DNA of 64,000 nucleotides from Dioscorea cayenensis subsp. rotundata. Taxonomy: Eukaryota; Streptophyta; Magnoliopsida; Dioscoreales; Dioscoreaceae. The translations under genes and the position numbers were made by a program. Position 1 is the stretch's first letter, and every line of letters starts with the position of its first letter. This document shows positions 1,379-52,296 of this stretch, one piece after another. The stretch covers positions 19,772,305 through 19,836,304 of the forward strand of contig NC_052488.1 in assembly GCF_009730915.1 (NCBI RefSeq), written 5' to 3'. The notes beneath the pieces are model-generated. The model was not told the DNA's origin and did not search any database. It worked only from the letters and a program-made list of their open reading frames with translations.

Positions 1379-1440
1379 ATTGCCCATAAATGTTGTTACT
1401 TTGATTGGAAAAAAAAAAAACACTGCTTAATAAACACTAA

Positions 1441-2342
1441 GGTTGTGTTTAATTGCCCTTTTTTCTCTGTAAAAATTTTCTACGGGTCATTTTCCAGCTA
1501 AATAGGCTGTTTGTTTGCCAAAATTTTCCGTGGAAATTTTTTCCACAAACTCTATCACGTGACCCTATTTTCCCTCAAATCAATGAAAATTTTTTCCTAC
1601 CTCTACCCTGGGAAAAGTTTCCAAGGAAAACGCAAGGGGCTATGTGAAAAGATAACATGCGATTGAAATATTTAAAATGACTTTTCTTTTAAAAATTTAA
1701 AAGAAAAGTTTTTCCTTTTCTTTTAATTTTGTTTAAAAAAGATAAATTATATAACTTGATAATATTTTAAATAAATTTATCCATATCAGTGAATAGATCC
1801 CGCGACGTTTTGATGGTAAGATTCAATTCCACATAGCGCTGTTTATAATTTTAAAATAACTTTTCTTTTAGAAATTTAAAAGAAAAGTTTTTCCTTTTCT
1901 TTTAATTTTTTTTAAAAAAATAGATAAATTATATCACTTGATAATATTTTAAATAAATTTATCCAAATCAGTGAACATATCTCGCGTAAGATTCATTTCA
2001 ACGTGCGCTAAGATTCAATTCCACGTAACGTTGTTTATAATTTTAATGATTTTTAAAAAAATTTCCATGGACTACGTGACTTTTTCCAGGGAAAATTGAT
2101 GTAATCAAACAACAAATGAGGTTTTTTTTTCACGGAAAATGTTTCATTTTCCGTGGAAAATAAGAACAATCAAACAACAAAATCTAAATTTTTCATAAAT
2201 TTTTTTTTATTTTCTATCTAGAAAATAATGCCAATCAAACGACTATTTTTTCATTTTTCATGTAAAATCTTTTCATGAAAAAATTTTTCATGGAAAAATT
2301 TTCTTTTCCACCCATTCTCCATGTTGCCAATCAAACATAGCC
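1441..2342. mobile_element. MITE, Harbinger/Tourist-like, TAA target duplication, internal tandem duplication
   Basis: The 902-bp element begins GGTTGTGTTTAATTGCC and ends GGCAATCAAACATAGCC (given as complement-matching ends; the right end on this strand reads GCCAATCAAACATAGCC). It is flanked by TAA at 1438-1440 and 2343-2345. The SUT-C flank shows the uninterrupted site (CTTTAATTATATAAATGGC near 26397), so insertion is directly supported. Inside, a unit of about 190 bp is repeated twice (from about 1673 and about 1853), each with a palindromic AAAAATTTAAAAGAAAAG block and TGATAATATTTTAAATAAAT. It has no coding capacity. A second family member lies at 51536-52296. Confidence 0.8.
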
Positions 2343-2429
2343 TAATTATATAAATGGCTGGCCATAATAAGATCAACACGTATTGTATATATATATATAT
2401 ATATATGTACGTGCTTGTGGACATGTTTC

Positions 2430-3442
2430 GGCTTTTTTATTAAAATAATATTTTTTAATTATTTACCACATTTCCTTAATTATTTACAGGAATACGTATT
2501 CTCTATTTTTTAATAATTTTTTAAAAACTTAAAGGCCTCACTAATTTTTTAATATTTAAAATTTATTTTTTAAAAAAAACCAAGGGCCCTATTAATTATT
2601 TAATATGAAAATTTTATTTTTTTAAAAGCTATGGTCCTGGCAGTTTTTTAAATAAAAAACGATTTTACATTCAAGAACTTACAATTTTTGTCATTGTAGT
2701 TTTTTTTTTCAAAATTATTTTATTTTTTTACATTAAAACTAGCAAAATTCATATTCTTGTCATACTAAACGAAGGAGGCAACCTTGATTGAGAGGAACAC
2801 CGACCAAGGGCCGCACGGACTTTTGACCAAAGAACAAGCTTCCACTACGATTGCTAATTACTCAATTTTGATCAATGGACTCAAGTACGTTTTTTGATCC
2901 GTGTTGACCAGTTGATTTCCATATAAGCTTCCTCCATTTTTTTTGTATACATATTTACTCTCACAAAGCTCACATTTTTTCATTTTTTACAACGGCAGAA
3001 AAATCACTTGCTTTGGTTTATTATAATGGTTCAATCACTACAAGTGAGGAGAAGCAATATTTTCATCGGATAATCATTCTTATTTTTATATAAAAAATGG
3101 TATTTTTTTAGATAATTTAAAGAGAACCATTAAAGAAATATAGAAATTACATATGATCGAATAATTGCACATATCAAATACCATATGCCTAGAAATTAAT
3201 GAAAATTATAAGGCCTTGAATGTAAAACTATTTTTTAATTTAAAAAACTACCGGACCCGTAGTTTTTTAAAAAATGAAATTTTAATATTAAACAGCTAAT
3301 GGGGCCCTTGGTTTTTTTTAAATATAATTTAAATAATAAAAAATTAGTGGACCTTTAACTTTAAAAAAACTATTAAAAAGTAAAAAATATAAATAATTAT
3401 GGAAATACGAAAAAAAAAAAGCGTTATTTTAATATAAAAGCC
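2430..3442. mobile_element. MULE-like (Mutator-type) non-autonomous element with long terminal inverted repeats and 9-bp target duplication
   Basis: The 1013-bp element starts GGCTTTTTTATTAAAATAA and ends in its inverse (TTATTTTAATATAAAAGCC). The inverted match continues, imperfectly, for about 250 bases at each end. Examples are CCAAGGGCCC near 2580 against GGGGCCCTTGG near 3300, and TTTTACATTCAAG near 2663 against CTTGAATGTAAAAC near 3216. The 9-bp direct repeat ACATGTTTC flanks it at 2421-2429 and 3443-3451. SUT-C has the empty site (GTACATGTTTCTATATG near 26455). The middle (about 2760-3080) is unrelated to the arms and could be captured DNA; I recognise no gene in it. Confidence 0.82.
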
Positions 3443-3629
3443 ACATGTTTCTATATGTTTTATGTTCAAATATATTTTATGACAATTAGGGGCTTCATGG
3501 AAGTTCATTGCTGATTTTGTCTTTGTATAAAGCTGTGTTATAATAGCCTTATCAGGCCAAGCTTTTTCACATATAACTAGAATAAATTAAAAAGAGTAAC
3601 ATTGTAAAACTGATGTCAAGCTCAATAAG

Positions 3630-3740
3630 CTAACTTTAACCAAAGGACTAGCCTAGTGGTATTTAATTGTATTGAAAATGAGAGTGATGTATTTAAAATG
3701 TCTCGAGTCCAAAACTCATTGGAAGCAATAATAATAATAA
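3630..3740 (+). repeat. tRNA-like SINE-type relic with (ATA)n tail
   Basis: The stretch contains an A-box-like GGACTAGCCTAGTGGT and about 50 bases later a B-box-like CGAGTCCAAAACTC, and ends in AATAATAATAATAA. This block is missing from the SUT-C flank, where the flanking sequence runs straight on, so it is an insertion. The later LINE landed beside it. Related blocks occur at about 9728-9835 and 17320-17410. A true tRNA gene is excluded because no cloverleaf can be folded. Confidence 0.35.
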
Positions 3741-3752
3741 ATCATCGATTAT

Positions 3753-4667
3753 TTTTTATTTTTTATTTTTTTTTGAAAATGTGGATAAACCACTTGCATT
3801 AAAAAAGAAGAGCAAAACAACAGAGACCAAACAACACAACAAGGACTGCTCATACCACAAGGAGTGATATTACAGTCACAAAACAAAGCAAAAGAAGGAA
3901 AAAACAACACCCCCGGGCCGACACCAACAAAACAGAACAACTACTCCATGTTATCGACGGGGGCCTCCTCGGCATGAGTGTCCACCCTGTCAAGAAGACG
4001 CCTCGACTCCAGGAACTCCAGACTGCGTTTCACAGTAGCCATGGAATCAATCAATCTCTCCTTGGTGCTATCTGCAAGAGCATCGAACCACGATAGAAGC
4101 ATTCGATTAATACAAATTACAATGTGATGAGCGGGATGAACTTTAGCATTAAAAATTCTATCATTCCGAGCAAGCCAAATATTCCAAAAAAAAAGCCTTG
4201 ACCACTAAATCCACCATAGGCTTGAGACCAGCCCTAACAGACCCACGCCATGCCAGCCAGATGCAATGCATCGACCCCGGCGGTTCCGGAAAGCACAGTA
4301 ATCTACAAAAGTATCCCCACACCTCTCGAGCAACCGTATACTTGAGGAACAAATGATCAGCAGACTCCGTATCCCCGTGACACATAACACACGTAGTCGT
4401 CGGGAGTCTATTACAACGCCTAAGCTCCAAATTCTCCATCGTCAGAATCTTATTATTCCAGGCAAGCCAATTGAAAATGGAGATTTTCTTAGGACAAATA
4501 TTTTTCCAAAAAAACTTAGCGATCTCACACCTCACATCCCCATCATTTAACAGGTTGTACAGTGATTTCACTGAGAACACACCACTAGCATTAAGAGACC
4601 ATCTTTTCTTGTCCTCGCTAAGCTGCCTGCTTGAGTTCCATCTATCCCTCAAAAGAGTAGCATCCGC
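3753..4667 (-). mobile_element. 5'-truncated LINE (L1-like) with 12-bp target duplication
   Basis: A T-rich run at 3753-3774 is the poly(A) tail of a minus-strand element. The 12-bp direct repeat ATCATCGATTAT flanks the insertion at 3741-3752 and 4668-4679. The minus strand encodes, from 4652 down to 4161, a frame with the typical end of plant LINE reverse transcriptases. It has FSVKSLYN, then CPKKISIFNWLAWNNKILT, then the zinc-binding CVMCHGDTESADHLF block of the zf-RVT domain. Only this C-terminal part is present, so it is a dead insertion. It sits inside an older insertion (about 3630-4790) in the SUT 3' flank. Confidence 0.85.
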
Positions 4668-5003
4668 ATCATCGATTATGAGTATGGATTAGCAACCCAA
4701 AACTCTCGTATTTATTGAAAATGTGCGGATTAGACAATTAATTTTCAGCCTGTGCGCACACCCCTAATGTATCCAACGCACTTTCATTTAAAAAGCCAAA
4801 CTTCATTATTGAAATCCAAACTTAGTAAACTAGTTCATACATCCACACAAAATAGTTCGACACCCTGACTTTCTCCATCCATTAAATACAACAGATCCAA
4901 AGAAACTTTTTAGAATTCCAATAAACTCAGATATTTGATTTACATGTAAGTACAATACAATTAATTCAACATTTAACCAAATACAACCCAATAGATATAT
5001 ATA

Positions 5004-5292
5004 AGGTGTAATACCCGAATTGGTCCCTCTACTATTCTCTCTCTTCTCTTTTGGTCCCTCTACTCAGAAATATTCCCAACTAGTCCCTCTACTCTTGAAA
5101 ATAGTTCTACTTAGTCCCTTCTATTGACTGTATTTTTCAAAAGTAGAGGGACTAGATAGGAAGAGATTAAGGGTAGAGGGACTAACTTGGGTCATTTTCA
5201 AGAATAGAGGGATTAGTGAGGCGCATTTCTGAGTAGAGAGATCAAAAGGGAAGAGAGAAAAAAGTAAAGAGACCAATTCGGATATTATACCT
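5004..5292. mobile_element. MITE with long inverted repeats
   Basis: The left end reads AGGTGTAATACCCGAATTGG and the right end CCAATTCGGATATTATACCT. The inverted match continues through the repeated GGTCCCTCTACT / AGTAGAGGGACT blocks and CTCAGAAAT / ATTTCTGAGTAGAG, so almost the whole 289-bp element folds into a hairpin. ATATATA on both sides may be the target duplication, but the surrounding AT repeat makes that uncertain. It has no coding capacity. Confidence 0.7.
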
Positions 5293-5533
5293 ATATATAA
5301 ATATACAAGCCCATGTCATTCTGGAGATATTTGTAATATGTAGATTTTAAACCTATGAAATTTCCTAAAAAAGCTATTGGATCACATCTAAACCGTCCTC
5401 TAAATCTCAACCCCATCCATCCTCTCGCTCATACTTTCTATTTGTGTAGGCGTTATGTGAACTTACGCGGTAGATGATGTATTATATATATATATATATA
5501 CACATATATAACTTAATTCCGTTTTTGCAAATG

Positions 5534-5614
5534 ATGAGAGAACACCTCCCATCATCCTGAGCACCTCCCACACAACACAAACCTCACTTCTTTACCCTCC
5601 ACACTACTGATTAA
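5534..5614 (-). pseudogene. Fragment of the glutaredoxin-like gene fused to SUT intron 1
   Basis: GAGAGAACACCT at about 5537 and CACCTCCCACACAACACAAA plus CCTCACTTCT at 5562-5591 match, on the same strand, the 3' coding part of the intact minus-strand gene at 28168-29319 (around 28180 and 28303-28334). About 110 bases between the two matched blocks are deleted. At about 5610 the sequence switches to ACTGATTAAAAAGAAAAC, which is SUT intron 1 (compare 11071-11090). The junction therefore lost most of the glutaredoxin copy together with SUT exon 1. Confidence 0.75.
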
Positions 5615-6302
5615 AAAGAAAACAAAGAGAGAGCATCATCTCCAATCCAAGCACATGCAACAAAAGTCACAAGAAAGGATTGAGATTGTTCCTCCAATGA
5701 AATTAAAATTTTTATGAGTGCCTTAAATTAATTTATTTGTTGTTGTTAACCATACAGCCAAAAAAAATTATTTCCTTTGCTTTTTATTACAGACTCTTGG
5801 ATCACCACACTCCCTTGCTTCAATGATGTGGCTATGTGGCCCTGTTTCAGCCTTCATAGTGAGTTACAGTATTACCAACTTGCTATTTTTATTCTAAATT
5901 TGATCAATAATTTAATCTGAACACATGTTAATAATTGTTAGGTTCAACCATCTGTTGGTGTTTGGAGTGATAAATGTCATTCAAAGTTTGGAGGGAGAAG
6001 ACCGTTTATTCTTGCAGGCTGCCTTTTGATCTGTACATCAGTGAGAACTTATCAAAATTCACAGAAAGATTTAGTTGTTTATATATCTGTGAGCTCGTCG
6101 AAAGATTTATGTATCTAATTCTTTGACAAATTAACAGGCGCTTGTTATCACTTTTCTTTGGATATTGGATATGCACTCGGTGATACAAGAAAACATAGTA
6201 GGTGAAACTAAAACCAGTTTTATTAATAAAAAATTTTCTTTACTAAGTTTTTTTTTTATATATTTGCAATTTTTACATTGAAAAAAGATGGAAAGCTACA
6301 AT

Positions 6303-6499
6303 CAATGGCGGACCTAGAAATTTGGTACAGCCCAGGCTTAAATAAAAATCAATCTTCATGATAAACACACTGTGTCCCAACCACGGTTTCACCCTGGGCT
6401 TCCCTTTCCTTGGCCCAGACTTAAACCTTATCGGATGGAGTTCTTCTAAGGTTTTCCGACCGGCCAGCCCGGGCTGCCGCCCATGTGGGTCCGCCACTG
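6303..6499. mobile_element. hAT-type MITE inside SUT-A exon 5
   Basis: The 197-bp insert has ends CAATGGCGGACC and GGTCCGCCACTG, which are inverted repeats with one mismatch. It is flanked by a perfect 8-bp direct repeat GCTACAAT (6295-6302 and 6500-6507). An 8-bp duplication and CAGTGGCGG-type ends fit the hAT superfamily. Removing it restores the exon 5 reading seen in SUT-B ([11 protein letters not shown] region). Confidence 0.85.
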
Positions 6500-7310
6500 G
6501 CTACAATTGTATATGTTGTCGGCTTTTGGATGGTTGATTTTGCGAACAATGCAGTGCATGTACTTCTTTGTTCCATACTTAAAATTATAATTTTTTAATT
6601 CAATGATTTTGAATTTTACCAATGAATCATGAAATGCAGGCACCATCTCGTGCACTAATGGTTGATCTTGCAGGTGAAATAATGGCATTGTAACATTGCT
6701 TAATGTTAATTAATTTGCCTGAAATATCAACAGGTCTCGATAGATTTACAGTAATAAATGCAGTAATGTGTTCATGATCTGTAGTAGGAAACATACTCGG
6801 TTATATTTTGGGCTTGGCATCGGTAATTTGCCAAAATTTTTCTGCTTATAAACATCAATCCCATGAGTTTACTGACAGTGAGGTTCTTTGTGCAGTTGAT
6901 TTCCATTTCTGAACACAGGAGCTCACAGTGGTTCTTTATTGTGCTTTATGTTTTAAATTATTATTATTTAAGTCTTACATAGTGTTTGGATTCAAAAGTC
7001 GAAAGGAAAGTGAGGGAAAAGAAAGGATGTGTTCAACCCTTGTTTGGATAGACAAATTTTATGGAGAGAAAAGAAAAGAGAGTTCTCTAAATAGTCTCTT
7101 TCGATTTTTTTTATTATTATTTTTTTTATAAATTATTGTTTATCTACTTTCATCATTATAAGATATAAACATAGAAGAATTTAACAAAAAGATTGGATCA
7201 CATGTTTCCATTCATTTGAATGAAATAAAAACCACTGAGAGTAAATCCTTAAACTTCAAAAAAATTTCAATAAAACAAATTAATTACATAATTTTGGAAA
7301 TATCAACTTG

Positions 7311-7680
7311 TTTTTTTAAATAGATAAGCAACTGATGCATTAAAAAAAAAAGTAAAATACAAACAAGAAAAGATTGACACAACAAAATAACATAACACTA
7401 GGTCACCAAAAATGAAGCATGACAAATAAAAGAACATCTACGGAATGAAACACAACAAGGGGAAGGAGAGCAAGAGCAAGGTAGCTCGAGGCTGAGGGTC
7501 ACAGACTAAGGAGGCGCCGAAGAAAAGAACACATCTGGCTCGCTTGCCCCAGTTGGAGGTTCAAGGGGGTCTGGACTTTTGGTTCCCGCAAAAATAAGAC
7601 TACGTTTGATTTTGGGGAGAGACTTCTCGAGGATGTATCTATCCGGAACTGGGACTGATACGAAGTCGATGGATGTATAT
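7311..7680 (-). mobile_element. Probable LINE 3' fragment (minus strand) in SUT-A
   Basis: A poly(T) start followed by AATAGATAAGCAACTGATGCA resembles the 3' ends of the other minus-strand LINEs here (GTGGATAAACCAC motif). The segment interrupts a block (7145-7310, then 8797-8848) that is continuous with the end of SUT-B intron 13 (19140-19369). No protein domain survives and no target duplication is clear. Confidence 0.4.
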
Positions 7681-7694
7681 AACCCATATATATA

Positions 7695-8789
7695 CAGTGG
7701 CGGAACCAAGGGGGGCGAGCGAGGGCTTCAGCCCCCCCTCGGCTCCGGTGAGGTTGCTTTCCGGCAGCCATGAAGTTAGGGTTTTTATTTATATAATATT
7801 GTTATATAATATTTTGTTTGTAATCAATTGTCATATGATGTCAATGTGCTTGAGTGGTTGGTGGGAGTTAAATGATTAGAGCCCACCTTGGTTCAAATCT
7901 TCATTAAAAACAAGTTTTTTTATTTTCAATTGATAATGAGACATTGAAATTTCATTTATTAATATTATTCATAAATTATCATTGAAAATTTATAAATAAT
8001 ATTAATAAAATTATTAATAATAAATTAATAATTAAAAAAATTAAGTTGATAATGGGTTTTTGATACTTTTAACTAACTAAAAATAAGCATTTTTATATTT
8101 TCAAAAAGTTGCTAAATTTTAAAATTTTAATAAATTTAAAGAAAAAATTAAATTGATAATGAGGCATTGAAATTTTTAATAAAAATTTATGAATAATATT
8201 AATAAAATTTATAAAAATAATTTAATGATTTTAAAGAAATTAAATTGATAATGTGTTGAAGTGTTAAGTTTTTTATACTTTTACTGATTAACAAGTTTTC
8301 TTATTTTCAAAAAGTTACCGAAATTTTAAATTTTATAAAAATTTAAGACAAAAATTAAGTTGATAATGTGGCATTCAAATTTCAAATTTTTAATAAAAGT
8401 TTCTGAATAATATTAAGTTGATTATGAGCCGTAATAATATTAAGTTAATTTCAATTTTCAAAAATTAAATTTTTAAAATTAATAAAAAATTAAGTTGATT
8501 ATGTGCCATGGCAAGTATAAATTAGTTGTTCTAATATAATAATATACATGTTAAAGTAAATGAATGATTGTTTAGTTGTCTAGTTAAATATAGTTATTTT
8601 TTTTTGTCAGATACACCATGACAACGATAGCAGTTAAAATTATAGTTAATGTTTTTTTTTCACTATATGTATATTCAAATTGTAGTAATATTATTGAACT
8701 ATTTTTACTGTAGATAATTATTTTATTTGATAATTTTTTTACACTCTAGCTTTAGCCCCCCCTATCGGTAAGTTCTGGTTCCGCCACTG
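7695..8789. mobile_element. hAT-type non-autonomous element, 8-bp target duplication
   Basis: The element begins CAGTGGCGGAACCAAGGGGG and ends GGTTCCGCCACTG, with subterminal AGCCCCCCCTC / TTAGCCCCCCCTATC. TATATATA flanks both sides (7687-7694 and 8790-8797). The interior is AT-rich with a short unit reiterated several times (TTAAATTGATAATG / TTAAGTTGATAATG). A tRNA-like stretch lies at about 7848-7900 (GCTTGAGTGGTTGG then TTGGTTCAAATC). No transposase is encoded. It belongs to the same broad family as the element at 6303-6499, judged by its ends. Confidence 0.85.
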
Positions 8790-9007
8790 TATATATATAG
8801 CTAGATAGATGTTTTGATGAAACAATTAACAAAATGATGTTTTTGCAGGTGATAATATCAGTTAGTGCAGGGCCATGGGATGCTCTGTTTCACAAAGCAA
8901 ATTTGCCTGCATTCGCTATGGCTTCTTTCTTTGCCTTTGTTACTGCCTTTGTCGCATTCTTTGTGCTCCCAAAGTTGAAAACCTCCATCTTCTCTGCATC
9001 CCATTAA

Positions 9008-10131
9008 TCTAACCCCCAATAATTTATCAAGGGGAGGATTTAATGGCTTGCCGGTTGCCACATGTGCCTTTTTGCACGTTGCTGTTGAGATGAAAGACGA
9101 CCAGTTTCTAAAATACATTTTTACGGCTCATATGTAGACATATATTTAAGGAATATTTTTCTATCTCCTATGTTTTTTAACCTTAGAACTGAGATTTAGA
9201 CATCTTGGAAATCCAAATTAGAGCCCTATATAAGGAGACATGTGACTTTTCACATTAGGTGTTTTTTTTAAATATACATAGAGGAATAATCATATATTCA
9301 ATCATTGCCTTTTTCTCACCTATTTTGGTCATAATCCAAATTGAAAAGACTCATATTAAGTGACTCAACATGGACAAATTAGAGCATCTACTAAAATTAT
9401 ATTTTAATAGTTTCCCTAATTCACATGGTCCAACGTAGAGGTCATAGTTTAATGAAGCCAATAGATGTAATCTCTTGGAAGCTCTACAATTTTATTAACA
9501 ACATATTTTTGTTCTTCTCTGTTGTCTAACGGATGCCTTATCATCTTTTATGGCTATAATTCATCTTATATATATATATATATATATACATTGACTACAG
9601 GCAACAAATGTAGTTTTGATCTCAATAACAACATGGCCTTGGGAGAATGATCCTCAATAATTTATGAAAATTAAAAGAAAAAAAAACTTCAGGAGGTTTG
9701 AAGGAATAGGTGAGTTACAAGTCTCACACTACCATGGAAATATAGCCTAGCAGTCAAGCCACTTGACTTTCATTTAGGAGGTGAAAATTTTAACTCTCTT
9801 CTAATAAATAGTTAAGGAATAATAATAAAAAGTATGGGTGCTCTTGGAGTAGCTTGTACATATTTTATATATATAAACAAGCGCCTCAATAGGACAAGCC
9901 GGCAGCCATTATATTTTGAATTTTCATACTGTTTTCTTTCTATTTCTTCTTTCTAAGACTTTTATTAACCTCTGGTGGTTGGTTACAATCTTCTCATCTA
10001 TTTTTTCTTTTTCTATTTGTTATTTTAATTAAAATCTTGATTGATTCATTTATATATATATAATCTAGTTTGATGTCTTGTGCCTGAAACCAAATTAAAT
10101 TAAGGAGAGTAGACAATTGGGTGTGAAGAAG
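9008..10131. other. Intergenic region between SUT-A and SUT-B; upstream of SUT-B
   Basis: No coding signal was seen. It holds a SINE-like relic at 9728-9835 (A-box-like TAGCCTAGCAGTC, tail AATAATAATAAAAA), an (AT)n run near 9570 and a TATA-rich stretch at 10051-10062 that could serve SUT-B. The last 80 bases (ATCTAGTTTGATGTCTTG onward) resemble the sequence ahead of SUT-C (GTCTGATGTCTGCCAG), which suggests shared leader sequence. Confidence 0.5.
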
Positions 10132-13100
10132 ATGGAGGTGGAGGTCGGTGGTCTGAAGAATGTTGAAAGTTCGGCTTTTTCCGGTGACGGTGCTCCGGCG
10201 AGTGATCAGGCAGCTACTCCGGCAAGCTTAATGAAACTGATACTATCAAGCATGGTTGCTGCTGGTGTGCAGTATGGTTGGGCTCTCCAAGTTGCTCTTT
10301 TGACATCTTATGTTCAGGTTCAGTTACTAAACTTAATTAATTTGCCATGCAACATCACCAGTTACCTACTGACTTGGCCTTCCACCTTTTTTTTTTCTTT
10401 TTATTTAATATATATATATAATTCTTTGTGCTGTATTTTAAGAATTTATTTATAAAAAAAATGGATAAATTATGTTTTATTGAATAGAAAGAGCTAAACA
10501 CCAAAATTTAAAGAATTGATTTGAGAAGTTGTCAACTTCCACGAATTTCTGATTTATTTTCTTTATTTTTAAGAACTTAAAAATAAGATAATAAATGGTT
10601 TTTATGTGATTTTTATTTTTCTATAAATATAGACAAGTCATTGTAATCAGAATCTTTTGAGTTGAGAGTAATTCAAATTCTAGATTTTGGATTTGGGAGA
10701 GAGATCAAATACAATTCTTTTAATATAGAGGTGACTTTAAATATTTATTTTTATTAGCACCATGTATAATAAATTGGAAAAATAAGAATAATTAACAATT
10801 TTTAAAAACTCTCAATAATCATTTTTAATAAAAACTGTTTATTATTTTATTCTTAAATTTTAATCAGAGTAGAGTGGAATATCAACTCTCCATATTTTAA
10901 AATTAATTAATTTGATTTTAATTTGATACATATTATTATTATTTTATTAGTGGAATATGGAGTGTTGAGTAAGAAAGTTTGTTATTTTTCTGCAATACCA
11001 TTAACAAATCAAATATTATAGTAAACAAGACAACATAAGATTTTTGTTTGTCCATACTCCAAAGTGGGGTTCACTGATTAAAAAGAAAACAAAAGAGGAG
11101 CATCATCTCCAATCCAAGCATATGCAACAAAAGTCACAAGAAAGGATTGAGATTGCTCCTCCAATGAAATTAATATTTTTATGAGTACCTTAAATTTAGG
11201 TGTTAGTTGTTGTCATAATAATTTTATTTCCTTTGTTATTTTATAACAGACTCTTGGATTACCGCACTCCCTTGCTTCAATGATGTGGCTATGTGGCCCT
11301 GTTTCAGCCTTTATAGTGAGTTATAGTAATACCAACTTGTTATTTTTATAATTAATTTGATGAACAATTTAATCTGAAAACATGTTAATAATTGTTAGGT
11401 TCAACCAACTGTTGGTGTTTGGAGTGATAGATGTCATTCAAGATTTGGAAGGAGGAGGCCATTTATTTTTGCAGGCTGCCTTTTGATCTGTACTTCTGTG
11501 AGAACTTACTAAATTTGCAAAAAGATTTAGTAGTTTATATTTCTGTGAGCTCATCAAAAGATTTATGTATCTAAATCTTTGACAAATTAACAGGCGCTTG
11601 TTATCGCCTTTTCATCGGATATTGGATATGCACTTGGTGATACAAAAGAACATTGCAGGTGAAACTTAAACCGGTTTTATTAATAAAAAAAATTCTTTCA
11701 TATACTAAACTAATTTTTTGTTTTGGTTTTTTTTTTTATTCTGTAGTGTCTACACGGGAAAAAGGTGGAAAGCTACAATTGTATATGTTATCGGCTTTTG
11801 GATGCTTGATTCTGCAAACAATGCAGCACATGTACTTCTTCGTTCCAAACTTAAAACTATAACTTCTCAGTTCAGTAATTCTGAATTTTACCAATGAATC
11901 ATGAAATGCAGGCACCAACACGTGCGCTAATGGCCGATCTTGCAGGTGAAAACATGGCATTACAACATTGCTTAATGTTTATGTGAAGTCTAATTAATTT
12001 GCCTGAAATATCAATAGGTCCTGGTAGATTTACAGCAGCAAATGCAGTAATGTGTTTATGGTTTGCAGTAGGAAACATACTTGGTTATTCTTCAGGTGCA
12101 ACCAGGTCTTGGCATCGGTAATTTACCAAACTTTTTTCTATTTATGACATCAATCTCTTGAATTTATTGACAGTGAGGTTCTTTGTGCAGTTGGTTTCCA
12201 TTTCTGAACACAAGAGCTTGCTGTGAAACTTGTGCAAATCTTAAGGGTGCTTTTCTAATTGATATTGTGAGTTTTAAGTACTTTCAAAAACCGCAGAATT
12301 GAAAGATTAGTCTATCAAATTTTTTTTTTTTTTTCTGATAAAAGTGGATAAACCCCAATTTTTAGAAAAAAAAGAAAAAGAAAAATACAACATAACTAAG
12401 AAGACAAAGGTGCGTTTAGACAAGTGCGCCAACAAAGACGTGGTCAACAAAGAAGGGAACAACAAAAACAAATAGCACAATAAAAGTATATAGTTCACTA
12501 GGCGTGGATCAAATCAAAAGAAAAAACATAACACAGTGACTACTCCTACAGAAGAGAGGAGGTCCTTAGGAGTCTCAAGATGCAAGCACTAGGAGGTGCT
12601 GGCAGGTGCTACTCTCGACCATCAGGCATTTCTCTTAACAGCATGTACTGACTCCATGAGCTTTTTCCTCTTCTGTTTAGGGATTGTATACACCCAAAGA
12701 ATAAACAATGAGATACCTTAAAAATAATAGAAATCGAAGTACAAAAACATTCATAAAAGATTCTCGTATTTCTTTCAAGCCAAAAAGATTCTTCTATTTC
12801 TTTCTAGCCAATCATTCCAAATTAATGCCCTAGTTAAAGTATCCTAAGTTTTCTTCGCCCCTCCTCTGAGTCTTGTCCTCCAAGGACCCCACATATCTGA
12901 AAGGGATATAGGAAAGTCTGTCAAAGCAAGGCTCCAACTAAAATGATCCCAGATTTATACTATAAAAGGGCGTTGAATGAACAAATGATGCGAAGATTCA
13001 ATGTCATTAAAGCACAGTATGCAAATAGCTGTTGGCAGTTTAATGCATCTTCTTTTAGCTAAGTCTTCAAGGGTGAGAATTTTATTATCCCATGCTAGCC

Positions 13101-16100
13101 AAGTGAATGCCTTAACCTTCCTTGAGTAAAAAACCCTTGAGATGTTCATACTTGATTGGCAGCGCAAGCCGCCATCAATCAAAAAGTTGTAGAAGGATTT
13201 AACCTAGAAAGTGCCATTAGAAGTGTGATTCCAACGTTTAAGGTCTTTGGAATCTCCATTCAGATTCAATAAGAAGTTATCAATGAAAGGATTAATTTCT
13301 CTTAGGATGTGAAGGAAGTTAAGGGCTAAGGCATTAACTGTTCCACTAGTGACTGTAGATTCTACAAATGTTTCAGGCTATAGATCTCTAGGAACTCGTC
13401 CTCCCAACTAGTCATTAAGCCAGAAGTGAGTGGACCTGCCATCATGAATGATGTGTGTGATACACTTCCTAAAAGCTAATAGACACCTTAAGATGCTTCC
13501 CCATAAGAAGGACCTATTTTTGGGTTGCATTTTGAAAAGGATCCAGTATTGATGATGCTGATAATAGTTGAAATATATTACCATCAAACCACACCAGTTT
13601 GTTTCTAAGATTATTTTTCCACCACCATTTTCCTAGTAAGACTAGATTAAAATTTACCAGATTTAGTATACCCCAGCCTCCTAAGTAGTGAAGTCTACAG
13701 ATATGTTTTCAGTGACCAGTCTACACACAACCTTGTCAAATTCTAGATCCCTCCACAAGAAGTCACGGCGAATGCGGTTTATAGCTTTAATGATCCAGGA
13801 GGGAAGGTTATAGATAGACATCCAATAAGTGGGGATAGAGGTAAGTAAAGAGTTCACTAACGTGAGTCTACCCTCGAGGGATAACATCCTAGATTTCTGG
13901 GTTGCCAATCTTAAATGTATCTTAGTGATGAGAGTTTCTCAGTCCTTGCAATTGGGATGCATGCCTGAATCCTAATTTCCAAGTACATCAGTGGAAGATA
14001 TCCTGATGAGTTATTTAAGGTGCTTGAGAGGAACCTATCCGCTTGGAGGCCTACTCTTGTTGAACAGAGGCATATTTTGTGGAAATGAATTCACATCCCA
14101 AATAGACCTTCAAAGAGATATAGTATGAGTTTTATAATTCACAAATCTTTCCAAGTCCACCTAGTAGGACTCCATACAGAACACCGAATAACATGGCGTT
14201 GGAGGTCATTGTACTTAGGACATCAGCCACAAGTACAAGCAGGAGAAGAGAGAGAGAATCACATTATCTTATCCCTCTCTGAAATCTAACGTAGCCATTT
14301 AATAAAATGGAGGATTTTGAAGTGATTAACATGCTTTCAATCCAGCCTATCTAACGATCACCAAATCTTTGGGTTTTCAAAAGTTCTAAAAGGAAGTTCC
14401 AATCCAGTGATCGCCCAATTGATTCATTCAAGATTAACTGCACCATTATAGAAGTCTTGGCACAGATCTATCAAATCATTATTGATTGTCGAATAGAATT
14501 CTAAAAAAAGAAGATAGGGAAACCATCTGGTCCAAGGGCCTTATCAGCTCTTAGTTCAAGGGTGGCTCTCTTTAGTTCCTCTTAAGTGAACAAGGCCACT
14601 GGGGCTATAAGGTCTACTCTAGCTTTGTTAATCAACAACCTATCACAATTAAATCGGAAATGTGTGGAGCTTTTCGATCCAAATTGTGATCGGAATAAAG
14701 AAGTGAAGGCCTTTCTAATTTCTCTTGTCTCTTCAATGGTGGATTGGTTATGTATAATGTGGGACATGAAGTTTTGGTCATGCCGACATTGGCCACAATG
14801 TGGAAAAACTTAGTATTAGAATCTCCTTCCTTGAGCCAAGTTAAACTTGTGCACTGATGCCAGTACACTTCCTTTTGGATGAGGATGTTGCGCATGGTTT
14901 GTCGCAACTCATAATCTTTGTTATGTTCTGACTCTGTGAAGTTGCATGTTTCCTTTACAGCATCTAAGTTTTTAATTTCATGAAGAATGTCAAGTTTATG
15001 CAAATTGATGGAGTCAAAATTAGTTCTAGCCCACTCACGCAAACCTATCTCTAGTATGAGCCAATTTTTAAGTAATAGTGAAAGCCCCACACCCTTGCAG
15101 ATTAGTTTCCTCCCACCAAGATTGAATAAGATCACTAAATCCTTCAACATAACACTAGGCTAATTCAAACCTAAAAGGGCGTTGTTTGAAGTTTGTGGCA
15201 TCATGTTGTTAGTTTGATGAGCGCGTAATCATATCCAAATCATGGAAGGTAATACTGATTAATCCTAGGGTGATGGCTCAACTAGTCCTGATTAACTAAA
15301 AAGTGATCAAGCCTAACTCAAGTAGGATTTGCCTGGCCATTAGTTCAGGTGAAATGCCTACCCATGGAAGGAGAGGCTCCATAAGGTTTAAGTCACGTTT
15401 TAGCCTTTGCGCCTGTGTGATGTCTTCTCCTATTGGGATTCCTCTATTCTTGTCTGAGGTAGAAAAATGATATTAAAGTCACTACAAATCACCCACATGA
15501 GGGCTCTACCACCATTACTAGTACGGATTTCATCCCAAAAAAGATTGTTTGAGGTATCTATCATTAGGGCCGTAAACTGAAGTACATAGCCAATTTCCTT
15601 AACCCAAGGGGTTAGATATTAAAAGATGTAAAATCCGACCACTTAAGTAGTATCCTCTGACCCTTTAGCAGTCAAGGAGGAACGTTCAATCTCTAGTCGC
15701 CTAAGTTGTTGAAGTAGTCCATTTTTTTAATTATAATTAATATCAAAGTTTATACCACATGCTAAGCAATAACTTTCATGTTTCATATCTCACAATTTCT
15801 TTTATTTCAATTTGATAAGCAGGTGTTTCTTCTTTTCTGTTCTTCTATATCTCTGTTTTTCGCCAAAGAAGCCCCACTTGAAGGAAAGACCGGAATGGTT
15901 ATTGCAAATGAACAAAAATCAGGAGTAATTGAACTTCTAAAAAGTCTCAGACATTTACCTCCTGGAATGCGTCCTGTTCTTATTGTCTCTTTTCTGTCTT
16001 GGGTACTATTTGTTCGACATAAGACAAAAACACATGTTTTAGTTCGATTACTAATAGAGCACTTTCACCTGAATATTTCGTTATTTGCTTGACAGCTATC

Positions 16101-19100
16101 ATGGTTTTCGTTCTTCCTATATAACAATGATTGGATGGGCCGAGAAATTCACCATGGTGATCCAGAGGGAACTCAAGCTCAAAGAAAAGCTTATGAGAAT
16201 GGAATCAGAGATGGTTCATTTGGATTGCTATTGAATTCAGTAAAGAAAATAAAACTATTGATTTTTTTTTCTAACAATATTAGTATGTCACTGACTCACT
16301 GCTAATTTTTCTGTCACAGATAATGCTAGGAATTGGTTCTTTTCTGCTCGAACCAATATGTCGAAAGCTTACAACAAGAGTAGTGTGGGCTATTAGTAAC
16401 TTCATATTGTTCTTCGCCTTCGCATCGATGTGCATTGTGAGCATATGGTCTACCAATGGTTATTCCTATGGAGTGAATAAAGAGGAAGAAGTGAACAACA
16501 AAGTTAGAGTTGTAGCTCTTCTTATATTTGCAGCTCTTGGCTTTCCTTTGACTGTTAGTATTAGTAATTCCATTGCTATGAATCACATAGCTCGTTGTTT
16601 TTAATTTCTGAATTAATTGTTACTTTGTTTGATCTGATTTGTTTTTAATCTATGATCATGATCAGGTGTTGTTCAGTGTTCCTCCTGCTGTTGCCGCGCA
16701 ATTAGCCGATATCGGAGGAACGGGACAAGGTTTTTTAATGATATTTGATGATTTTTTTTCATAGTATCACAACCAAGTTTTGGTTCATAATGGTATTAAT
16801 TTATTTTTGCAGGATTAAACGTAGGGATTCTGACTATTTTCAGTGTCATACCACAGGTAAGTAAGACTGTATTACAAAAGATTGTATGGTTAGTTTTGTC
16901 TAGTGATAATAGTAACAACTTTATTCAAAAAAAAAAAATAATAGTAACAACAAAAACCTACTTAAAAATTAAGAAATCTGGAATTCCAATTATTTTATAT
17001 ATCGTGGACATTTTGTTAAAGTAATTTCAATTGAACTTTAATGCTTCCGAGGACAATGATGTCGTGTCTTCTATGACATCAAAATTAAAGGTAAAATGGT
17101 CATTTTAAAAGTTTATTTTGAAGATATTTATTTATAAATCAAAAGAATAATATAGATAACTATACTTACATATTTGTTTCGGTCATTTTACACAAACATA
17201 GTTTAGTTTTATTGTTGAATTAAGAAGAAGAATGTAAAGGAGCTCCTTAATTATATAAAACATAATTATAAATTTTATTTAAACTTTATTTTTAATTTTT
17301 CAATGCCATCTCATTACGGCAACAACCTAGTAGTAAGACACTTTACTTCTATATGGGAGATCAAGGATTTGACTTCCTTTTAATATATGATTAAGGCCTA
17401 ATAATAAAAAAAAATGTGTGTGGAGTGCTTGTCCACATTATAAAATAATTTTTTTAAAAAAAAAAATCCTAGATCATACCTATATTTACACTAGTGTAAG
17501 ATATAAGGGACCGAAAAAGCAATTTGACTTTGGCCCATGCCAGCCAGTCTCTGCATCCTTGCTTCTTATATTGGTGTTAGTCTTATCTGTCCACTTTTGA
17601 TGAACATGTTTTGTTATTTCTTTCTCTTAAGTCTTTTAAGTTTTTCCGTAAGTCTTAATCTCTCTTGTTTCTGCATTGTTATTTTTTTAAAATAGATTAT
17701 GATCTCTCTACTTTCATTATTAAAAACCTAGTATAAAATATAAACACAAGGAACCATGGTCTGGACCAGCAGTAATTACCATATAGTGTGATTGAGAGGA
17801 CTTAGTTTGAGCCTCTCAACTCGCATTGCATTTGGTCATCTATGGGAGTTCTATATGAAGAATACATCTTGTCCTCACTGTTAGTAATAATTGATCTAAT
17901 CGAATTAGGGTTAGGAAAAATCATTCTACTCAAATTAGAACTATCAAAATCACAAGCGCAAAATCCTCCAACGTGCACATACGATGTTCTCTAACTTTTC
18001 ACCTTTGATCCGGAAGAAGTGATCACTTCTTTTGCTTTGTGAATATTATGGTTTTTGTCGTAGCCGTCTTTTGATGGCAATAACAATTAGTTGAACAATA
18101 ATCTCATATCACAACTCCATATTAATTTTAATAATCACAATCATCTCCATTAACAAATTGTAATTTAATCAAAAAATTAGAGGTATTCATATGTGAGACC
18201 CAATATAATATTTTACATATTAGTTCTTCTATCAATAAATATTTCATATAAGTGGATTTGATTAGACCACCAATGGCACTATCGATCCCCATGTATATAT
18301 GTGCTTCCTTATATTATTGGACATAAAACAATTTTAAAACATATATAATAATAAATATTTTTTATATAATAAAATCCTTTCAAAAATTAATTGCCAGATT
18401 TTTATCCAACTTATAAGAAACACAATCTAAAATATTCTCTCCTATAATATAGGAGTGATAGATCCCATCTTGGAGCACTACAAACCTTGATGTATTTATT
18501 ATATAAGCCAATGTATCCGTATATAACCTGCAATTAGCATAATCGGTTGACATTATCAAAGTAATATAATTTATACATAAGATTTAATAACATCATCATG
18601 TAATAAAGATTTTCTGTAACAAAATAACTCTTTTGTTCTATGACAGTGCTTGGTCTAAAAGTTTTGTATGGTTCAGTTCAATATTTGTCAACTACAAATA
18701 TCCACAATGCTACAAAATCTCCATTTTAGTGGTTGAGACATACAATTCTATCACATATAGTAGTACAACATGTGATAACCAATAATTATCATATCAAATC
18801 ATATTTTATTGCATATGTTATGAACTATTTTGGGTAGCAAGGAATATAGATAATCATGTCTCATTTTAATGATTTCTATACAATGCAAGCCCATAATAAT
18901 ATATCGTCAAACATGAATAATACGATACCCATAATTATGCATGTAACAAATAAAACTATTTTATTATTAAATATTAGCTAAATTTAGCTTTATAGGGAAT
19001 ACTAGGTTTCCACTCCTCTCTAAGGTTGCATGGCAGGGGTTTTCCTTAATATGTCATTCAAGCCACCATAATTGATGCATTTTTATATCTGTCTGTCCTT

Positions 19101-19528
19101 TGTTTTGGTGCTTATCGGCTTTATCGATATATATATATACAAACACAGAAGAAATTAACAAAACGTTTGGATCACATGTTTCCATTCAATTGAATGAAAT
19201 AAAACCCACTTCTAATCAATTGACCCTCAAACTTCAAAATTTTTTCAGTAGAACAAATTTATTATATAATTTTTCTTTGGAAATAACAACTCCACTGACC
19301 CATTTATATATGGCTAGATAGATGTTTTGATGAAACAATTAACAAAAGTGAAAAAAAATGTTTTTGCAGGTGATAATATCAGTGAGTGCAGGACCATGGG
19401 ATGCTCTGTTTCACAAAGGAAATTTGCCTGCATTTGCTGTGGCTTCTTTCTTTGCCTTTGTTAGTGCCTTTGTTGCATTTTTTGTGCTCCCAAAGCTGAA
19501 AACTTCCACCTTCTCTGCATCCCATTAA
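10132..19528 (+). CDS. SUT-B: sucrose/H+ symporter (SUT/SUC family), 14 exons, 511 aa
   Basis: Exons: 10132-10317, 11250-11315, 11399-11497, 11594-11658, 11747-11831, 11912-11945, 12018-12117, 12191-12266, 15823-16002, 16096-16239, 16320-16553, 16666-16729, 16813-16856 and 19370-19528. All phases join and the sum is 1536 bases. The product is a 12-helix MFS proton-sucrose symporter, expected in the plasma membrane or tonoplast. Family marks are the first helix [27 protein letters not shown], the loop FGRRRPF (about residue 100), [15 protein letters not shown], and the C-terminal SAGPWDALF. The ATG chosen gives MEVEVGG, shared with SUT-C; an upstream in-frame TAA excludes earlier starts. Intron 8 (3.6 kb) holds an antisense LINE and intron 13 (2.5 kb) a probable insertion. 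The exon 5 donor reads CAT/GTAC instead of CAG/GTAC. The coding frame is fully open. Whether the long introns are spliced well is not known. Confidence 0.93.
12320..15740 (-). mobile_element. Decayed LINE (L1-like) antisense in SUT-B intron 8
   Basis: A poly(T) run from 12320 marks the tail of a minus-strand element. TATCAAA flanks it (12313-12319 and 15741-15747). Minus-strand fragments read in order: 15150-14632, the stretch before and into the reverse transcriptase ([15 protein letters not shown]); 13908-13681, the reverse transcriptase end ([27 protein letters not shown]); and 13182-12955, zf-RVT ([33 protein letters not shown]). Frameshifts and stops separate them, and the 5' half of the element is missing. 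SUT-C intron 8 (24697-24785) is short and lacks it. Confidence 0.85.
17320..17410 (+). repeat. SINE-like relic in SUT-B intron 13
   Basis: It reads AACCTAGTAGTAAGACACTT, then GGAGATCAAGGATTTGACTT, then TTAAGGCCTAATAATAAAAA. The order and spacing match the block at 9728-9835 (AGCCTAGCAGTCAAGCCACT, GGAGGTGAAAATTTTAACTC, TTAAGGAATAATAATAAAAA), which suggests two copies of one tRNA-derived short element. Confidence 0.45.
17748..19140. repeat. Unclassified ~1.4-kb insertion in SUT-B intron 13
   Basis: Sequence on either side (about 17695-17748 and 19140-19300) is continuous in SUT-A (7140-7310), so the middle has been added in SUT-B or lost in SUT-A. The possible short repeat AAACACA lies at both edges. 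No frame is seen. The text includes GTGAGACCCAATATAATATT and other stretches that resemble LTR/leader sequence of copia-type elements, but I cannot prove this. SUT-C intron 13 is only 387 bases. Confidence 0.4.
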
Positions 19529-25700: not shown

Positions 25701-26351
25701 AATATTTGATGAATTTTTTCATAGTATTAGAGCTTAGTTTCGGGTCGAATTGATGTTATTTTATCTGTTGCAGGGTTAAGCATAGGAATTTTGAATATAT
25801 CCGTTGTCATACCACAGGTATATAAAACTATTTTGCAAAAGATTTTATAGTATTGTTTGATAACAATAAGAGAAAATTACTTTAAACATTACAAAATTTG
25901 GAATTTCGTTCACCTGCTTATTTATTTTATGTTTAATCTATACATTTTCTTAAATTTTCCTTTAATTAAACTTCAACGATCTAGTGTTCTACATCGCATC
26001 AAATCATTGGACGTATCGGTTATTTTAAAAGATCAAAGTGTACTTTTCGTCTCTAAATTATATGTTTACATTTATTTTGATCCTTTTATACAAAAAATGT
26101 TTATTTAATTCTTGAATCAAGAAGAGTATGAAAATAGTTCTTTAACCTATATTATATGTTTTGATTAAAAAATAAATTAACAAAGTGGGAAAATGGTTAT
26201 GCAGGTGATAATATCAGTAAGTGCAGGGCCATGGGATGCTCTGTTTGACAAAGGAAACTTGCCTGCATTTGCTATGGCTTCTTTCTTTGCCTTTATTAGT
26301 ACTTTTGTTGCATTCTTTGTCCTTCCAAAGTTGACAAACACTGCCCATTAA
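22716..26351 (+). CDS. SUT-C: sucrose/H+ symporter (SUT/SUC family), 14 exons, 507 aa
   Basis: Exons: 22716-22901, 23678-23743, 23833-23931, 24027-24091, 24179-24263, 24341-24374, 24446-24545, 24621-24696, 24786-24965, 25072-25215, 25302-25535, 25630-25693, 25774-25817 and 26205-26351. Every exon except the last has the same length as in SUT-B; the last is 12 bases shorter. All splice sites are GT-AG and the joined frame is open (1524 bases). The product is an MFS sucrose symporter with [47 protein letters not shown] and SAGPWDALF. Differences from SUT-B in conserved places include KLGRRRP for [15 protein letters not shown] for DSANNAAH, and WHSWFPF for WHRWFPF. At [12 protein letters not shown] is closer to the family norm. 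Introns are short and free of large insertions. This is the most likely functional copy. Confidence 0.95.
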
Positions 26352-26684
26352 TCTTTGTAACATTGGTGGAAATAACACTACTTAATAAATAAACAATCTT
26401 TAATTATATAAATGGCCGGCCATGATAAGATCAACAAGTACTATATATATACATGTACATGTTTCTATATGTTTTATATTCAAATATATTTTATGACAAT
26501 TAGGGGCTTCATGGAAGCTTCATTCCTGATTTTGTGTTTTTATAAAGCTGTGTTATTAATAGCTTTATCAGGCCAAGCTCTTTCACATGTAACTTGAATA
26601 AATTAATAATATTAACATAATATATATAACTGCATTTCAAGCTCAAAAGCCAAACTTAAATATTGAAATCCAAATCAAGTAAAC

Positions 26685-27598
26685 TTTTTTTTTTATTATT
26701 TTTTTTTGAAAAGGTGGATAAACCACATACATTCAACAAATCCAGACGAACAAAATACAACAGAAGTCCACTAGCTGTGGAACCCAAGGAAACAACAAAA
26801 AGGAGGAACAATAGGTTTCCTCCTGACCCACAAAAAAAAACAACGTACTACCTCACAAACTCAGCCAGTGCCTCCTCAGTCGTGTGAGCCGCCACTGCCC
26901 CTCAGACTGAGGTCCCGTGAACTCTAAACTACGCCGAATAGAGGAAATAAAATCCTCAAGCGTCGATCTCAATCCTTCTGAAGCTGCAGAGAACCAAGAT
27001 AATATGAAATGATCAGTTTTAACTACAACAGCATGCGGGCACACATTTATCAGAAAATATAACATCATTTCTCGTAAGCCAAATCGCCCACACGAAAGCT
27101 TTAATTACCCCATCCCCAACCACGTGGGAAACGGCCGGCAAAGCATTCCTCCAGGCCCCCCACAGAAACGACATCGAACTCGGAAGCGACGGCAACTGGA
27201 CAACCCTACTAATCTGCGCCCACACCTCAAGGGAGAAACGACACTGCAGAAAAAGATGATCCACCGATTCCACCACTTCGTGACACAGCACGCATGTGGC
27301 AGTCGGAAGCTTGTTGCACCTGCACTTAGCTAAATTTTCAAAGGTAAGGATTTTATCCTTCCAGACCAACCAATTGAAAATATTGACCTTCCTCAGGCAA
27401 GGGCCCTTCCAAAAGTACTTAGCAATAGGGCACCGAAGTCCCCCGTCATTTAGTCGATCGTAGAAGGATTTAACCGAGAAGGATCCATTGACAGTCAAAC
27501 TCCAAAGCTTAAAATCTTTTCCAAGCCTACAAGGAAAGTTCCTATTGGCAAGCACAAGAGGAGGGCTAGATCACCAAAGGTGAGGCCTAGCTAAAAAC
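26685..27598 (-). mobile_element. 5'-truncated LINE downstream of SUT-C
   Basis: A poly(T) run from 26685 and GGTGGATAAACCACA mark the 3' end of a minus-strand element. The minus strand from 27555 to 27019 encodes the end of a LINE reverse transcriptase with WSLTVNGSFSVKSFYDRLND, RKVNIFNWLVWKDKILTFEN and the zinc-binding CVLCHEVVESVDHLF. AGTAAAC at 26678-26684 and 27599-27605 may be the target duplication. It is the same family as the fragments at 3753-4667 and 12320-15740. Confidence 0.8.
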
Positions 27599-28167
27599 AG
27601 TAAACACATGCTCACAGAAAAGAAAAAGGGAAAGCCGGAAAGGAAACAAGAAGCAATAGCCGCCAAACAGAAGAAAAGAGAGGCACCATTCCAAGGAATG
27701 GTGAGCGCCACACATGCTTTTCTTTATTAATGCCATACAAAATGGTCCAACACCATGACTTTCTCCATTGCCATTACATACAACAGATCCAAAGAACCTC
27801 TTCAGAATCCAAATAAAAACTTAATTTTGAGATAATTGATTTAACTGTAAGTACAACACAATTAATTCAATATTTAACCAAATAGAACCACATATATATA
27901 TATATATATATATAAGCCTCCTTAGAGGTCATTATATCAACATCTAACCACTCATAAATCCCAATCCCACCCATTCTCTCTTTTTCACTTTTCATCTTTT
28001 CTACAAAAATTCTACTAATGTCTGTTCTCTCTTTTATACTTTTCATCTCTTCTGCAGAAATTCTACAAATGATGTCCGTCTGCAGAGGAAGCATTACATA
28101 TATATATATATATATAGTACTTAATTTTTTTCTCAAATTAATGATCAGATCTAAAACACAATAAAAT

Positions 28168-51260: not shown

Positions 51261-51535
51261 TAAAAACAATGTTTTTTCATTGTTGTGCCTTATAAGCAAT
51301 TTTTATCAAATGAAGAAGACATGTAGTATAAAGTCTCTCTCAGATTGTTTATTGTTCTTCTGAGCTGGTTGCTGTGAATTTGGTTCTAGTCCTTGTCTTC
51401 TTTTTCTGTAGTTTGTCAATGGTGGTCATGGAGTCAATGAAGTGGGTCCTTAATTATTTTGCACTTCCTAACTTGAGTTTCATGGTGTTTTTGTAAGAAT
51501 CTGTTTCAAAATTGCAGAGCAATATTAATCGCTTA

Positions 51536-52296
51536 GGCTGTGTTTGATTGTCCTTTTTTTCTCTGGAAAAATTCTCTACGGGTCATTAGGCTGTTTGTTT
51601 ACCAAAATTTTCTGTGAAAAATTTTTCCCTGTGAAAAATTTTTTAGGGAAAACGTAAGGAGTTTGTGTGATTGAAATATTTAAAAATAACTTTTCTTTTA
51701 AAAATAAAAAAAAAGTTTTCCTTTTCTTTATTTTTTTTAAAAAAAAGATAAATTATGTAACTTGATAATATTTTAAATAAATTTATCCAAATCAATTAAT
51801 AGATCCCGTGGCGTTTTGATGGTAAGATTCAATTATACGTAGCGATGTTTATAATATTAAAATAACTTTTTTTTTAATTTAAAAGAAAAGTTTTTCCTTT
51901 TCTTTTGATTTAAAAAATAAATAAATTATATAAGTTGATAATATTTTAAATAAATTTATCAAATCAGCGAACAGATCTGGTATAGCGTTGTTTATAATTT
52001 TAATAATTGTTTAAAAATTTTCAATGAAAAATGTGATTTTTTCCAGGAAAAATTAATGCAATCAAACAACAAATGAAGTTTTTATATGAAAAATATTACA
52101 TTTTTCATGGAAAATAAGAGCAATTAAATAACAAAATATGAATTTTTTATAGAAATTTTTTGATTTTTTAGCTAGAAAATAATGGCAATCAAAAGACTAT
52201 TTTTTTAATTTTCCATATAAAATTTTTCCATTGGAAAATATTCCATGGAAATTTTTTTTTTCCAGCCATTTTTCATATTGCCAATCAAACACAGCC
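51536..52296. mobile_element. Second copy of the 1441-2342 MITE family
   Basis: The ends GGCTGTGTTTGATTG and CAATCAAACACAGCC are perfect inverted repeats. They extend to TTA/TAA outside (51533-51535, 52297-52299). The internal order (CTCTACGGGTCATT, TTGATAATATTTTAAATAAA twice, then CAATCAAACAACAAATGA) follows the copy at 1441-2342, including the duplicated internal unit. It is shorter (761 bp) through many small deletions. Confidence 0.8.

Follow-up and report, generated by a model that had tools for sequence, protein, structure and literature searches.

Gene content of the sucrose-transporter cluster

The window, that is, the whole stretch of 64,000 nucleotides of Dioscorea rotundata DNA that was analysed, contains three sucrose-transporter (SUT) copies on the plus strand, followed by a glutaredoxin-like gene on the minus strand:

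5606..9010, plus strand: SUT-A, pseudogene (exon-by-exon comparison)
10132..19528, plus strand: SUT-B, 14 exons with GT/AG introns, open frame of 511 aa
22716..26351, plus strand: SUT-C, 14 exons with GT/AG introns, open frame of 507 aa
28168..29319, minus strand: open glutaredoxin-like gene, 383 aa (PF23733, 3e-17; PF00462, 1.1e-9)

The predicted products of SUT-B and SUT-C agreed in length, pI, instability, aliphatic index and hydropathy with two published members of the D. rotundata family, DrSUT5 (511 aa, pI 8.78, instability 32.7, aliphatic index 99.86, hydropathy 0.515) and DrSUT6 (507 aa, pI 8.58, instability 30.15, aliphatic index 103.51, hydropathy 0.565), respectively (PMC12193089). 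The masses computed for SUT-B and SUT-C were 0.65 Da below the published DrSUT5 and DrSUT6 values, an offset that we took for the result of differing mass tables. In the portion of the family survey cited here, DrSUT5 to DrSUT8 are located on chromosome 18 of D. rotundata, and segmental duplications are reported for the SUT family with no tandem duplications detected (PMC12193089).

Alignment of SUT-C residues 28-501 with AtSUC1 (8bb6) gave an E value of 8e-125, which identifies it as a full-length plant sucrose transporter (SUT/SUC). Both SUT-B (16096-16239) and SUT-C (25072-25215) encode the motif YNNDWMGRE at the place where AtSUC1 has FDTDWMGRE. Under a residue correspondence between rice OsSUT1 and SUT-C that we presume to hold, the essential residues of the rice protein appear to be kept in SUT-C. 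The residues reported as essential in OsSUT1 include Asp177, Arg188, Asp331, Arg335 and Glu336 (PMC3523064). The loop region aligned to AtSUC1 without a large insertion, and the match to D. rotundata identifies the source as a monocot; on the basis of this origin and of the absent loop, and following the definition in the cited part of PMC4228843, these SUTs are predicted to belong to Type IIB. The monocot Type IIB sucrose transporters described there are likewise SUTs without an extended central loop, found in monocots and expanded to multiple copies (PMC4228843). Two introns of SUT-B were very long (12267-15822, 3.6 kb, and 16857-19369, 2.5 kb) in comparison with about 90 and 390 bases in SUT-C, and the first of them holds a minus-strand open frame of 175 aa at 14632-15159.

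SUT-A is a pseudogene. Exon 4 is frameshifted, exon 7 carries both a stop and an 11-base gap, exon 8 is partial and the last exon is present; exon 1, the first 25 bases of exon 5 and exons 9-13 were not found above noise in the exon-by-exon comparison. A readable upstream extension of exon 2 was discarded, as the frame hits a stop at 5724, in intron-derived DNA. Over four exons, 10 A-specific and 15 B-specific changes were counted, numbers too small to tell any old constraint on SUT-A. The homology of SUT-A to SUT-B stops abruptly at 9010, three bases past the stop codon, and this end (9005-9020) marks a second junction in the array.

The glutaredoxin-like protein combines a GRXCR1/2-type C-terminal domain with a glutaredoxin domain, as identified by Pfam. 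Its gene and SUT-C lie tail-to-tail, as had been described from the sequence beforehand, with SUT-C ending at 26351 on the plus strand and the minus-strand gene occupying 28168-29319. No relative of this protein was encoded among 600 pattern stretches of viral contigs that were scanned.

A glutaredoxin-like gene scrap joined to SUT intron 1

Upstream of SUT-A, the following two features adjoin each other:

5541..5604, coding strand minus: scrap of the glutaredoxin-like gene, C-terminal codons, core 5556-5593 (self-match, shuffle test, codon check)
5604..5606, no strand: junction of glutaredoxin tail and SUT intron 1 (alignment; blunt or with one shared base)

A preliminary description of this DNA had matched 5561-5591 to the C-terminal coding end of the minus-strand gene, and the BLAST self-search of the whole window upheld it: 5556-5604 aligned with 28298-28346 in plus/plus orientation at 44 of 49 positions (89.8%, E 4.8e-11), and ungapped extension to 5541-5604 vs 28283-28346 gave 82.8% identity. 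The local score of the scrap against the glutaredoxin CDS was 73, in comparison with a maximum of 40 in 1000 dinucleotide shuffles. Identity was complete (10/10 bases) at both 5570-5579 and 5580-5589, the core at 5556-5593 being the surest part of the scrap and the outer stretches (5541-5555 and 5594-5604) less certain. A first alignment, with a 7-base insertion in the scrap and a match ending in CCACACT, was set aside, as the ungapped reading to 5604 takes fewer assumptions.

The search of the window with the glutaredoxin CDS (E<=1) returned six matches, corresponding to the gene itself, the scrap (8.5e-13) and four weak hits (E 0.001 to 0.75), the one at E 0.001 being a palindrome inside the gene. 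Since no match beyond the gene and the scrap was better than E 0.001, the dispersed repeat that would have spoken against the preliminary description was rejected within the window, where no sign of such a repeat was seen. By the same measure, the window holds no trace of the rest of a second glutaredoxin gene, with no further CDS match better than E 0.001.

Comparison of 20 codons of the scrap with those of the open gene revealed six amino-acid-changing differences, one of them to a stop, and two synonymous ones. The amino-acid-changing codons sit at both ends, where the alignment is less sure, and the best-aligned stretch (28299-28332) has two changed codons, both synonymous. This codon pattern appears compatible with birth as a scrap and with later truncation of a gene, and does not decide between them.

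SUT homology begins at position 5606 (ACTGATTAAAAAG; 11073 in SUT-B and 23498 in SUT-C), or at 5605 if one T in common with SUT-C is counted. At 5610-5619, ten out of ten bases are those of SUT-B intron 1, and glutaredoxin identity falls there to 1/10. In addition, SUT-B and SUT-C are alike at 25 of the 27 bases immediately upstream of ACTGATT, and SUT-A is without these bases. This sharp switch of identity, together with the presence in SUT-B and SUT-C of upstream bases that are absent in SUT-A, indicates that the join between glutaredoxin and SUT sequences is real and sharp, in agreement with the earlier view of the site as a breakpoint. The start of SUT intron 1 had been placed about 20 bases past the glutaredoxin match; the switch to intron 1 was indeed found, at 5605/5606, with a shorter gap, the glutaredoxin match being extendable to 5604. 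Both source sites are unbroken in the other copies, the glutaredoxin CDS being open across 28346 and introns 1 of SUT-B and SUT-C continuous.

The letters at the junction read CCACAC-T-ACTGATT, vs GGTTC-ACTGATT in SUT-B and GGTAT-ACTGATT in SUT-C. The two ends have zero to one base in common, with the ancestral letters uncertain by divergence of the copies, and homologous unequal crossing-over at this place is thus unlikely. Microhomology of CACT at the join had been proposed, and it was not supported: a shared CACT would leave CACTGATT once, whereas the product has ACT twice.

An interrupted colinear copy to the left of the junction

The segment 1381-5604, whose SUT-derived and intergenic part we call copy 0, was found to be an interrupted colinear copy of 26342-28346 in the same orientation, made up of six blocks, one of them weak. 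The source segment includes the SUT-C stop region, its 3' flank, intergenic DNA and the glutaredoxin tail. On either side of the junction, the sequence is colinear with its counterparts elsewhere in the window. This colinearity of the whole segment, absent from the preliminary description, is the largest supporting fact obtained in the analysis. The features to the left of the scrap, and their right-hand counterpart, are as follows:

1381..1440, plus strand: copy 0 SUT stop-codon region and start of 3' flank, aligning to 26342-26396
1441..2342, no strand: insertion in copy 0 with kin at 51523-52299 (self-matches), splitting the copy 0 flank
2343..2402, plus strand: copy 0 SUT 3' flank, homologous to 26401-26460 (86.7%)
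2421..3448, no strand: insertion in copy 0 with inverted ends 2421-2688 and 3202-3448 (self-comparison)
3443..3639, plus strand: copy 0 SUT 3' flank, homologous to 26457-26659 (87.7%), grouping as sister to SUT-C, not SUT-B
3640..4790 (ends approximate), minus strand: LINE-type insertion with a zf-RVT (reverse-transcriptase zinc-finger) fragment (domain and alignment)
4791..5003, plus strand: copy 0 intergenic DNA in blocks 4791-4831 and 4843-5003, homologous to 26645-26685 and 27733-27904
5003..5299, no strand: insertion in copy 0, palindromic (self-match of 4996-5299 to its reverse complement)
26342..28346, plus strand: right-hand counterpart of the copied segment 1381-5604 (self-comparison, alignments)

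In the five blocks that were measured, the left and right copies differed at 15/54, 3/40, 23/197, 19/147 and 11/64 positions, 71/502 in total. LINE matches to the right copy at 3752-3824 and 4376-4577 were left out of the six-block count. The left end of copy 0 is the stop region of a SUT, itself either lost or outside the window. This first block is the weak one, with 39 of 54 aligned bases equal to SUT-C and an approximately equal distance from SUT-B, and it reads TGCCCAT and then AAA at the place where SUT-C has TAA. Capture of a gene fragment by a mobile element was rejected as an origin of the scrap, as the colinearity is not confined to the scrap but begins in the SUT stop region and continues across the intergenic DNA.

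Regarding the interruptions, the same AT-rich element, which has internal direct repeats, is inserted at both 1428-2345 and 51523-52299, and the insertion at 1441-2342 is probably a non-autonomous DNA transposon. Related LINE-type zf-RVT fragments are located at 3640-4790 and at about 26686-27730, positions that are close to each other in the two copies without coinciding. The right-copy blocks 26457-26659 and 26645-26685 overlap by 15 bases at the insertion point of the LINE in the left copy. Shared ancestry of the two LINE fragments was considered and rejected, since they stand on opposite sides of the AAAAGCCAAACTT stretch, a position which suggests separate insertions.

The last codons of copy 0 are abutted on the left by the stretch 3-1377, in which an open frame of 261 aa enters from the left edge (to 788) and is followed by DNA with a TATA-like motif and AATAAA. 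No Pfam family was found above the cut-off for the open frame at 3-785, the single match below it having an E value of 0.21. The stretch is possibly part of a retroelement, which we offer as a guess.

Order of the duplications

The 3' flanks of copy 0, SUT-B and SUT-C were compared over 139 columns, leaving out the stop region. At 20 sites copy 0 and SUT-C agreed against SUT-B; copy 0 and SUT-B agreed against SUT-C at three, SUT-B and SUT-C against copy 0 at three, and one site had three different letters. Copy 0 and SUT-C were the closest pair in 1999 of 2000 bootstraps. Over the same columns, copy 0 differed from SUT-C at 7 positions and from SUT-B at 24, with 24 differences between SUT-B and SUT-C; the flanks of SUT-B and SUT-C differed at 41/194 positions. 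On the other hand, the 53 columns of the stop region were poorly aligned and uninformative, with 15 differences between copy 0 and SUT-C, 17 between copy 0 and SUT-B and 16 between SUT-B and SUT-C. The informative columns thus place the copy 0 flank as sister to SUT-C, not SUT-B.

In the intron comparison (477 columns), 64 sites joined SUT-A and SUT-B against SUT-C, the other pairings received 22 each, and nine sites had three letters. SUT-A and SUT-B were the closest pair in 2000 of 2000 bootstraps, with 53 differences between them and 95 between SUT-B and SUT-C.

As judged from these alignments, the split between SUT-B and SUT-C came first, and the copy 0/SUT-C and SUT-A/SUT-B divergences are both later. 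The affinity of the copy 0 flank to SUT-C rather than to SUT-B places the copying event after the SUT-B/SUT-C split. Copying of a SUT plus glutaredoxin unit before that split does not fit these columns, unless gene conversion intervened. After scaling by the SUT-B/SUT-C divergence over identical columns, the copy 0/SUT-C pair came out younger than the SUT-A/SUT-B pair in 1936 of 2000 bootstraps when the stop region was omitted, and in 1008 of 2000 when it was included, so that the columns suggest that copy 0/SUT-C is the younger of the two, the ages being equal once the stop region is added. The preliminary description had seen here the remains of an older copy of a two-gene unit. An older copy of a SUT 3' end, intergenic DNA and glutaredoxin sequence is indeed present at the left; its sister relationship to SUT-C, later than the SUT-B/SUT-C split, does not match a simple two-gene unit, and the copied block probably held more than one SUT.

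Origin of the junction

We consider it probable that this site arose as the join of a head-to-tail tandem duplication within the D. rotundata sucrose-transporter cluster; a join of this kind, an ordinary type of scar, is the most likely reading of the data. The glutaredoxin tail, which forms the right end of the proposed unit, is joined to SUT intron 1, which forms its left end, both in plus/plus orientation with their sources, and the right-hand part of the unit is matched, in colinear order, by the copy to the left of the join. The starting state would have been an ancestral array of one or more SUT genes followed by the tail-to-tail glutaredoxin-like gene. A block would then have been copied from inside intron 1 of an upstream SUT to the C-terminal codons of the glutaredoxin gene, and the second copy attached by non-homologous end joining or template switching, a repair route that we infer from the lack of homology between the ends. 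Such a single step would yield SUT 3' flank, intergenic DNA and glutaredoxin tail, followed by SUT intron 1 onward. SUT-A would have lacked a promoter and exon 1 from the outset and then decayed, the glutaredoxin scrap would never have been a gene, and the left copy would later have been cut up by insertions. If SUT-A and SUT-B had already split, the copied block may have comprised A-type, B and C genes together with glutaredoxin, which would place SUT-A and SUT-B to the right of the junction, in the order SUT-A, SUT-B, SUT-C and glutaredoxin that is observed there. The model requires a SUT with intron 1 to the left of copy 0, at a place outside the window, left of position 1. It would be weakened if the copy 0/SUT-C and SUT-A/SUT-B divergences were simultaneous, as one A/B-type gene in the block would leave the two at the right unexplained.

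The preliminary description had concluded that an older copy was deleted across the junction. Its breakpoint, its older copy and a SUT-A without exon 1 are all present; the deletion itself was not established, as a one-step tandem duplication gives the same junction. Under the deletion reading, a block that included a second glutaredoxin gene and SUT-A, each complete, was duplicated first, between different end points, and the DNA separating the C-terminal codons of the former from intron 1 of the latter was later lost, a history that produces an identical junction and a colinear left copy. The changes in the scrap core, all synonymous, would fit a gene kept for some time under selection, and to that extent speak against a tandem duplication that left the scrap at birth, although just two codons are involved. 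This reading takes two events, with end points that are not observed, where one suffices, and the remainder of the second glutaredoxin gene is absent from the window (CDS matches no better than E 0.001). We regard it as unlikely, the preference for one step over duplication plus deletion being a matter of parsimony, short of proof.

A single complex template-switching event, leading from the glutaredoxin tail back into SUT intron 1, onward along SUT-A as far as the stop codon and from there into the spacer upstream of SUT-B, is very unlikely in our judgement. Such an event would have made copy 0, the scrap, the SUT-A without exon 1 and the SUT-A/SUT-B pair together, with the junctions at 5604/5606 and 9010 remaining, and, if true, template switching would have built much of the yam transporter cluster at once. 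The abrupt end of SUT-A homology three bases past the stop is in line with it, and so are the similar raw differences, 0.111 for SUT-A/SUT-B vs 0.117 and 0.129 for the two longest blocks of copy 0/SUT-C; were both pairs to have arisen together, one would have to invoke template switching and a second join at 9010. On the contrary, copy 0/SUT-C looks younger than SUT-A/SUT-B when the stop region is left out of the bootstraps, though the two were even with it, and two simple duplications in succession produce the same layout. An assembly error joining unrelated stretches of the cluster at 5604/5606 is hardly credible: tandem clusters are prone to misassembly, but the flanking stretches show about 7 to 28% divergence per block from the remaining copies in the window, neither looks collapsed or repeated, and their order and orientation match a tandem duplication.

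Returning to the tandem duplication, junctions of non-homologous tandem duplications can truncate the genes that lie at either edge of the copied unit. The yam junction resembles them in that a distal end is joined to a proximal one with the orientation kept, the genes at the boundary are incomplete and the source sites are unbroken elsewhere; it differs from them in being old and much cut by insertions, with the full left gene outside the window. No closer parallel for the tandem-duplication junction was present among the matches listed in the literature searches.

A tandem origin sits badly with the lack of detected tandem duplications in the SUT family, as given in the cited portion of the published survey (PMC12193089), which makes no mention of SUT-A, the scrap or the neighbouring glutaredoxin-like gene; in contrast to that account, a spacer of 3.2 kb here separates SUT-B from SUT-C, which share a strand, and a truncated third copy stands beside them. 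If the tandem duplication is right, its direction and end points would be fixed for a cluster of sucrose transporters in a staple crop, and the exact junction would be a marker to trace this cluster across Dioscorea.
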